Positions 54,742-57,312 of a stretch of 64,000 nucleotides of DNA are shown here, piece by piece; within the stretch, counting starts at the first letter, position 1; each line of letters starts with the position of its first letter. The notes beneath the pieces were generated by a model. It did not search any database. It saw only the letters and a program-made list of their open reading frames with translations, and was not told the DNA's origin. Position numbers and translations under genes: made by a program. Source of the DNA: Verrucomicrobiota bacterium (GTDB taxonomy: Bacteria > Verrucomicrobiota > Verrucomicrobiia > Opitutales > Puniceicoccaceae); contig JBCDMB010000006.1 of assembly GCA_038744685.1 (NCBI GenBank), forward strand, positions 32,176-96,175, written 5' to 3'.

Positions 54742-56235
54742 CTACTGCCAACGGTAAAAGTTGTGCGGATCGTGCATGAAGTAAAAGTCATAGGGCTGTG
54801 GACGAGGCAGGATCACATGATCGGGAACGTCTTGCCTCGCCCTAACCAAGTCCTCGGCACCCGCCTCGCCAGAAAAGAAAAACCAATAAAAGGGCTGCGG
54901 GGCGCTATCTGTCGGCTTCTTCAATATGCCTTCCTCACGAACCTCGGTAACGATATGATCCACCCAACTGAGCTCCTGCGCAACATCTGCGAACTCCTCC
55001 CAATCCCCGCGTGAATTCTCCTCATACATACGCTCGTAAAATTCCTCGAGCGAAATCCCCATCTTATCGACAACCTGTCCGTGCAGCCGCCGCGCCCACT
55101 CTTCAAACACATCCACCTGCTCGTTCTGCTCAGTCAGGTTTCCAAAACTCACTCCAAAAGGCTGATGGTGCAGAAGAATTGCATTCGGGTAGGCGTATGA
55201 TTGCTCTGCGATAGTCGTGATCACCGCTGCCATACTAGCTGCGAAAGACTTAACGACGACGTGAATCGGAGCATCGGACGACTCGATACTCTTCATGATA
55301 CGGTAGCCCTCCATCACAGATCCTCCAGGCGAGCTGTTAATCACGATAAAAATCGGAGCTTCTGGGTCCTGGTTGTTGAAGAAGTCGATCCGGCGACTAA
55401 CGAAATCAGCTGTGCCCGTCATGATGGGGCCATCGAGAGGAATACGACGATCCGAAATTGAAAGGACTCCGTCCTGAAAAGGTTGATCTGGATACTCGGG
55501 GGCTACCCCGATTTGGACACGGAGCGATTCCTCTTTCTGACGCCTTTGAAGTTCGGTGTTCAATTCCGAGAGCTCGATGTCCCACTTGATTTTCTCCAGA
55601 CTCAGGCGCTTGGATTCCAAGTCAATCTCCTGCATGGCCGCTTGGGCTTGAAGTTGTACCCCTTTCAACTCCTCAGCCCGCTTTTGGTTCTCCAGTGCCA
55701 ATCGCTGCTTTACCAGCTCCAGCTCTGCCATTTCAGACTTAAATTGTTCGGTCTCGAAAGAACGCTCAGCAGACATACGCATTTTCTCTGCTTCTTTTTC
55801 AGCCAACTCGTTTTTCAGCTTTTGCTCCGCGAGCTGTAACTTCGCCTGAAGACTTTCCCGCTCCACAGCCAACTCCGCAGTCTCCCTCTCGCTCCTTGCC
55901 TTCAATACAGCAAGTTCGTTCTGCAGCCGATTTACCTCGAGCTCCGTCTCCTGTAAGTCGTTCTTCAATCGCTGTTGGCGGAGTTCGTACTCGATCTTGA
56001 GGCGTTCAAGTATCGCCCTTTCTTCCTGCAACTCCTGCTTTAGTTTTTCATCGAAAAGCCTGTTCGAGGCAGCGATATCATCGGCGATACTCTCATTCGC
56101 ATCCTTTGTAGACGGATTCTCAGCAACGTCTTTCCCGGAAGCGATCGGCTCGCTACCTACGGATGCAGACTCCTCACCAAAGAGGGTAGTCAGAGTAAAT
56201 GCAAAAACTGCGAAAGTGGTTAGATACGGACGCAT
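54742..56235 (-). CDS. Exported ClpP-like serine protease with long coiled coil
   Basis: From ATG 56235 the protein is 497 aa. A signal peptide (RPYLTTFAVFAFTLTTLFGE) precedes an acidic linker, a heptad-rich coiled coil at about 55-240, and a ClpP domain at about 255-440. ClpP features: IFIVINSSPGGSVMEGYRIM (oxyanion loop), nucleophile S334 in SFAASMAAVITTIA, and H357 in AILLHHQPFGV. The usual third residue, Asp, is not clear at the aligned place (ERMYEENSRGDWEE). It ends with a Tyr/Phe/Trp-rich tail. ClpP normally works in the cytosol with an ATPase ring, so the export signal and coiled coil are unusual. A frame to 56316 adds 27 poor residues before the signal. Confidence 0.85.
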   Translation of the reverse strand: MRPYLTTFAVFAFTLTTLFGEESASVGSEPIASGKDVAENPSTKDANESIADDIAASNRLFDEKLKQELQEERAILERLKIEYELRQQRLKNDLQETELEVNRLQNELAVLKARSERETAELAVERESLQAKLQLAEQKLKNELAEKEAEKMRMSAERSFETEQFKSEMAELELVKQRLALENQKRAEELKGVQLQAQAAMQEIDLESKRLSLEKIKWDIELSELNTELQRRQKEESLRVQIGVAPEYPDQPFQDGVLSISDRRIPLDGPIMTGTADFVSRRIDFFNNQDPEAPIFIVINSSPGGSVMEGYRIMKSIESSDAPIHVVVKSFAASMAAVITTIAEQSYAYPNAILLHHQPFGVSFGNLTEQNEQVDVFEEWARRLHGQVVDKMGISLEEFYERMYEENSRGDWEEFADVAQELSWVDHIVTEVREEGILKKPTDSAPQPFYWFFFSGEAGAEDLVRARQDVPDHVILPRPQPYDFYFMHDPHNFYRWQ

Positions 56236-56523: not shown

Positions 56524-57312
56524 ATGTGTCTGGTTAAAGCACTCGTTTTCGGACTTTTAGTGTTTAAGGCACTGCCAGCTAACGAAACTCGATTGTGGAC
56601 TTCTGTTGAGGGTTACAGCTTTCGCGGCACACTTATGAAAGTTGAGCCAGACAGAGTACTCATAAAACGAGAGTCTGATGACCAAGAGTTTTGGGTGTAT
56701 CGCACTCGTCTCTCACCGTCCGACCTTCTCGTAGTTAAAGGTTTTGAAGAGCTACGGCAAGAACGCGAAGATTCAGCACGGCGTATGTATTCTAGTATGG
56801 CTAGAAATGGAGACTTTGAAAGAAGACTACTGCACTGGGAAACGCCAAACGAGAGAGCGACAGTAGAGGTCGTATCGTCCAATAAGTGTCCGGTTCAGCC
56901 TGATTATTTCTACTCGGGGGAGTGGATGATTAGATTCGGCCACCGCCCAGATCTAAGCACGGGCCCGCCCTTTATAACTCAATTGATCACCCTACCTTCA
57001 GCCGGACAAAAAGTAAGGATCGAGGTGAATCTTCTACCAATCCAAGGTTCTGATAAATCGGATAATTCTGGGTTTTTCCGGCTTAGTTTAACGGATCCAG
57101 ATCTCCTTTACTATTCTAGGGATGGAGAGCCTGCTCCGAAATTTCCTTTTAGATCAAAAAGATTATCGGTAAACGGAGAGTGGAAAAAAATAGTGTGGGA
57201 GGTGGAAGAAAACTTCATCGAAAATCGGGACGTGAAGGTTGGGATCATGGGCGACCACAGTCACACCTATTACATCGACTATGTCAGTGTAACCCCTTTG
57301 GACGGGGGTTAA
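56524..57312 (+). CDS. Secreted SHD1-like domain protein
   Basis: A 262-aa protein with a signal peptide (LVKALVFGLLVFKALPAN). The first mature segment LWTSVEGYSFRGTLMKVEPD followed by RVLIKRESDDQEFWVYRTRL SPSD is the SHD1-like (SLA1 homology) pattern common in Planctomycetes and Verrucomicrobia. The rest is a beta-sandwich-like domain with segments VRIEVNLLPIQG and NRDVKVGIMGDHSHTYYIDY, resembling carbohydrate-binding modules. Base composition seems more A/T-rich than its neighbours. Function unknown. Confidence 0.75.
   Translation: MCLVKALVFGLLVFKALPANETRLWTSVEGYSFRGTLMKVEPDRVLIKRESDDQEFWVYRTRLSPSDLLVVKGFEELRQEREDSARRMYSSMARNGDFERRLLHWETPNERATVEVVSSNKCPVQPDYFYSGEWMIRFGHRPDLSTGPPFITQLITLPSAGQKVRIEVNLLPIQGSDKSDNSGFFRLSLTDPDLLYYSRDGEPAPKFPFRSKRLSVNGEWKKIVWEVEENFIENRDVKVGIMGDHSHTYYIDYVSVTPLDGG

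Follow-up and report, generated by a model that had tools for sequence, protein, structure and literature searches.

The window, i.e. the whole stretch of 64,000 nucleotides analysed here, contains at 54742-56235, on the minus strand, a gene for a ClpP-type protease with predicted export, read in a single frame of 497 codons (ATG at 56235, stop at 54742-54744). On the plus strand, this interval is interrupted by several stops. Four parts can be distinguished in the 497-residue product: a hydrophobic N-terminus, a helical rod, a ClpP domain and an aromatic tail. An initial sequence-only reading had described a signal peptide, a coiled coil of about 185 residues and a ClpP fold, and these features are confirmed here. 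The gene stands alone, with a divergent upstream neighbour (starting at 56524, plus strand) and, on its other side, convergent genes for peptide-transporter permeases. Its neighbours also include thioredoxin, ScpA-like and PurF-like genes, recognised from their sequence and not by search. The product of the divergent gene, 56524-57312 (plus strand), is a secreted protein that has no match in Pfam or NCBIfam, and by eye its start (TSVEGYSFRGTLMKVEPDRVLIKR) looks like an SHD1-type domain.

The ClpP (S14) domain was located by Pfam, PDB ClpP profiles and VIA-align at residues 250-435 (54931-55488, minus strand, as for all features below). Pfam CLP_protease matches residues 261-404 with an E-value of 8.9e-19 (68.5 bits, for a cut-off of 20.2), and matches to PDB ClpP profiles reach 8.5e-25. 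The same Pfam family (PF00574) is the top match of the window protein and matches 27/27 members of the family to which it belongs (best E-value 3.1e-24), which upholds the assignment to ClpP and not to NfeD/SppA. Within the domain, the PGGSV oxyanion loop (residues 303-307; 55315-55329), Ser334 (E. coli S97; 55234-55236) and His357 (E. coli H122; 55165-55167) lie where they had been placed from sequence, and are kept in 27 aligned relatives; P303, G304, G305 and S306 are invariant among these and V307 is nearly so. The two catalytic residues are found in 34/34 family domains; the adjacent His356 is not fully conserved. For the third catalytic residue, the sequence-only reading had found no obvious candidate and had suggested a dyad or an inactive enzyme. 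This does not hold: Asp411 (55003-55005), in a GDW motif, is invariant in 34/34 domains and aligns to E. coli Asp171. In the alignment, the positions of S97, H122 and D171 are occupied by Ser, His and Asp in all 34 family domains and in all 16 canonical ClpPs, where the E. coli row agrees at these three positions with the other 15 canonical rows. GDW was also placed opposite the catalytic RD of ClpP structures by two HMMER comparisons separate from this alignment. Since both the full Ser-His-Asp triad and the oxyanion loop are conserved, the domain is probably proteolytically active.

Predicted structures agree with this fold. Because only four sequences were present in the alignments, the models are weak, with a mean pLDDT of 55 for the whole protein and 65 for the domain. 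ClpP chains nevertheless rank first in a Foldseek search with the whole model (E 3e-7, rmsd 8-12), and all 50 matches listed by VIA-align for the low-confidence domain model are ClpP, with Z-scores of about 10-11 over 87-136 residues. We take these matches as support for a ClpP fold, and not for any particular oligomer or triad geometry.

The surfaces by which ClpP engages its unfoldase are a different matter. Subtracting a constant 56 from human L104, Y118 and Y138 gives what we take to be their E. coli equivalents, L48, Y62 and F82 (our own numbering). In human ClpP, the three residues form part of the hydrophobic pocket that receives the IGF/IGL loop of ClpX (PMC6110781). All 16 canonical ClpPs keep L48, Y62 and F/L82 in this pocket, whereas the family has mostly polar or small residues and Val: the L48 position is H, D, N, A, Y or Q; Tyr62 is replaced by Val298 in the window protein (55342-55344; Val in 33/34 domains versus Tyr in 16/16 canonical ClpPs); and Phe82 is replaced by Ser319 (55279-55281; A, G, S or T in 34/34 versus F or L in 16/16). 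Other family changes relative to E. coli ClpP are M92 to K/R and D78 to K/Q. In S. aureus ClpP, R171 acts as an inter-ring sensor, salt-bridged to D170 (PMC6110781, PMC9823225). The equivalent Arg170, present in 16/16 canonical ClpPs, is Gly410 in the window protein (55006-55008) and Gly in 34/34 family domains, which argues against two rings locking together as in ClpP. The protein scores far below the cut-off of the equivalog-level ClpP model TIGR00493 (46.8 versus 308.6 bits), and it departs from the cytosolic, signal-less character of canonical ClpP as judged by a sequence rule. By its domain and triad it is of ClpP type but, because its docking-pocket residues and Arg170 are replaced, it is placed by sequence outside the ATP-dependent ClpP group. 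The earlier proposal that it would act independently of ClpX/ClpA is borne out to this extent, the docking residues being lost across the family. The same genome carries two ordinary ClpPs, each about 30% identical to the window protein.

Residues 1-20 (MRPYLTTFAVFAFTLTTLFG; 56176-56235) form a predicted Sec-type signal peptide, a feature shared across the family. The signal peptides were assigned by rule and by eye and not by a trained predictor, the strict rule asking for a positive n-region, an 11-residue hydrophobic stretch and small residues at -3 and -1. This rule is satisfied by 28 of the 33 readable N-termini and by none of 15 canonical ClpPs, and it also flags 52 of 165 other genes in the family loci; the remaining five N-termini each break one point and are clear by eye. 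The sequence-only reading had made export hinge on homologues carrying a signal peptide too, and they do: an export-type start is present in all 33 members whose N-terminus can be read, among them the window protein. The N-termini are widely diverged in sequence, and that such a start is shared in spite of this argues for function. We infer that the window protein is sent via Sec to the periplasm. In two members (L052 5587-6999, minus strand, and L023 1291-2682, plus strand), the signal peptide contains a lipoprotein-like box, FAGC (MFAGCAAG), and some members may therefore be membrane-anchored, the adjoining paralogue perhaps not.

Between the signal peptide and the ClpP domain, residues 44-242 (55510-56106) form a predicted helical rod of 25-residue repeats, with helices predicted at 44-158 and 166-242 within a charged region. 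When the family is pooled, residue identity at a lag of 25 stands 13-15 z-units above shuffled sequences and that at a lag of 50 stands 12-14 above, with minor peaks at 7, 11, 14, 18, 32, 36, 39 and 43. The pooled hydrophobic period is 3.56-3.58 (z 14-15), which equals 25/7; Fourier analysis of hydrophobicity on single sequences gave no significance. A 25-state cyclic model has an advantage of over 300 log units against periods of 18, 21, 22, 24, 26, 28 and 29, and the spacing of hydrophobic residues fits 4,3,4,3,4,4,3, i.e. two heptads and one hendecad (7+7+11). Repeats of this kind form long, nearly straight helices. The long helical region noted initially is thus retained, but not as a plain heptad coiled coil. 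No standalone relatives of the rod were found elsewhere in the genome.

The protein closes with a conserved aromatic tail, residues 474-497 (VILPRPQPYDFYFMHDPHNFYRWQ; 54745-54816), which terminates in FYFMHDPHNFYRWQ and follows the family pattern LPRL.P.D.Y..YNPDGYYR (alignment A1). In close pairs, dN/dS is 0.04-0.12 for the core, 0.09-0.20 for the tail and, where not saturated, 0.16-0.27 for the rod. Purifying selection on the core is strong, and the low values in core, tail and rod indicate that all of these parts are retained. That 27 aligned relatives keep S334, H357, PGGS and an export-type start, and that close pairs are under purifying selection, takes the feature beyond chance. The window gene is one member of an uncharacterised yet conserved family.

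With the docking surfaces lost and the export signal kept, the family probably works outside the cytoplasm and without ATP. The explanation that we favour, with moderate confidence, is that of an exported, ATP-independent ClpP-fold serine endopeptidase with its rod sited where an AAA+ unfoldase would dock. The signal peptide would take the protein through Sec into the periplasm. ClpX, ClpA and ClpC would not be used as partners, because the pocket is replaced, the compartment is another one and the ordinary ClpPs of the genome are available for that job. The N-terminus of a ClpP domain sits at the axial pore, and the rod would therefore project from the unfoldase-docking face. Several rods might then gather over the axial face and set the oligomer and, as a conjecture, act as a passive gate or catcher, needing no ATP, for specific envelope proteins or for ones already unfolded. 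More tentatively, the family could constitute a separate class of self-compartmentalised, ATP-independent envelope ClpPs, in which the axial face bears, in place of the AAA+ unfoldase, a built-in bundle of 25-residue-repeat helices that selects or feeds unfolded envelope proteins.

Compared with ClpP (S14), with which it has the domain, the oxyanion loop and the Ser-His-Asp triad in common, the window family adds the signal peptide, the 25-residue-repeat rod and the aromatic tail, and has the pocket and the inter-ring Arg replaced. SppA and NfeD are exported or membrane ClpP-fold proteases that use a Ser-Lys pair. The family resembles SppA (S49) and NfeD1b/PH1510-N as ClpP-fold proteases outside the cytoplasm and gives weak matches to their profiles, each below its cut-off (NfeD1b_N 22.4 bits versus 40; SppA_dom 24.5 versus 155). 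Unlike them, its members have no invariant Lys after Ser334 (27 members), while His357 and Asp411 are invariant. Skp and other ATP-independent periplasmic helical holdases have comparable helical coiled arms, by analogy only and not by demonstrated homology, but Skp has no protease domain. ClpP is the textbook example of a protease chamber reliant on an ATP-driven unfoldase. A conserved family in which the catalytic machinery is kept, the unfoldase interface is lost and the protein is exported would show how ClpP-type proteolysis can proceed where ATP is absent, and would add to the envelope of two or more bacterial phyla a protease for processing or quality control that E. coli is not known to have. 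No description of an exported or periplasmic ClpP of this kind was found in the literature searched, a search largely outside subscription journals.

Alternatives differ mainly in how the subunits assemble, where the fold came from and whether the enzyme is exported and active. Firstly, the protein could be an exported processing or regulatory protease with few specific substrates, its rods setting a low-order oligomer (e.g. a trimer or tetramer) with neither ring nor chamber. We consider this possible though rather improbable. Among residues of the inter-ring region, it is not only Arg170 that is changed, to Gly in 34/34 domains: Asn150 and the Pro following HQ are not kept either, and Gln131 is Asn in the family. 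With Arg170 and Asn150 replaced, the oligomer might not be a ring, in which case it would have no chamber, and a rod of such length could dominate assembly. Against this, the segment at the position of the handle helix is unchanged in length, and a single long helix is predicted for it.

Secondly, the ClpP fold may have been recruited from a phage head maturation protease and only then exported, an origin that would be compatible with the function we favour and that we regard as plausible but unlikely. Phage head maturation proteases are S14-domain enzymes that act without an ATPase. Their profiles match the window protein about as well as those of ClpP do (PHROG 94, 2.2e-19; NCBIfam NF045542, 6e-18), although the NF045542 score of 65.3 bits falls short of its cut-off of 120. 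In the tree, all family members group together (96/89), separately from canonical ClpP (91/93). One viral homologue, in which Tyr62 and Phe82 are likewise missing, branches with the family at weak support (80/46). The viral branches, that of this homologue included, are very long, however, and the tree carries a warning of false joins. To our knowledge, neither an export signal nor a rod occurs in phage head maturation proteases, and the window gene lies outside any phage neighbourhood, no capsid, portal or terminase gene being recognised next to it.

Thirdly, an envelope scaffold of ClpP fold with no proteolytic activity would have suited the initial doubt over the third catalytic residue, but it is very hard to reconcile with a Ser, His, Asp and oxyanion loop that are invariant in 34/34 domains, tandem duplicates included, and with the strong purifying selection acting on the core. 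Finally, a cytoplasmic ClpP variant with a hydrophobic N-terminus that is not an export signal, for which the ClpP nature of the domain is the argument, is scarcely credible given 33/33 export-like readable N-termini despite their divergence, 0/15 in canonical ClpPs, and the lipoprotein-like boxes of two members.

Genomic context was compared across the family loci. No neighbour is common to the whole family among the loci compared, and the context therefore points to no substrate. Nudix and GDSL-lipase genes flank the family gene in some genomes, and PADLOC gave no match to a defence system. In six loci the gene immediately upstream, and in a seventh the gene two positions upstream, encodes a member of an uncharacterised membrane protein family (alignment A2); its members (L047 7119-8006, L049 4637-5488, L053 7312-8172 and others) have no Pfam match. 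This family was considered as a required partner and rejected, since the window genome lacks it and many genomes without an exported ClpP have it.

The same architecture was found in other genomes, in one phylum besides that of the window. Using the family profile, full-length relatives were detected in 33/286 genomes of the class. A Phycisphaerales MAG also has one, and in its phylum 7/246 genomes, counting the MAG, carry full-length relatives. As only these two phyla were sampled, this range is a lower bound. Among 289 genomes of the window's own phylum, 21 (its own included) carry relatives that match far past the ClpP domain, at 36-48% identity; nearly all match to the C-terminal end, and some genomes have two copies, some of them in tandem. 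The distribution is patchy, the gene being absent from two other genomes of the same genus and present at 53% identity in a genome from another family of the order. Plasmid and phage records gave matches to the ClpP domain only, none covering 80% of the query. Tandem duplicates occur in L046, L052, L023 and L038, and both copies keep the triad. The gene of one member (G121, L035 5528-7025, minus strand) is broken near its C-terminal end by a frameshift or a sequencing error, giving two overlapping frames (443 and 67 codons), the second of which still ends in FDFYFLYNPDNFYRWE.
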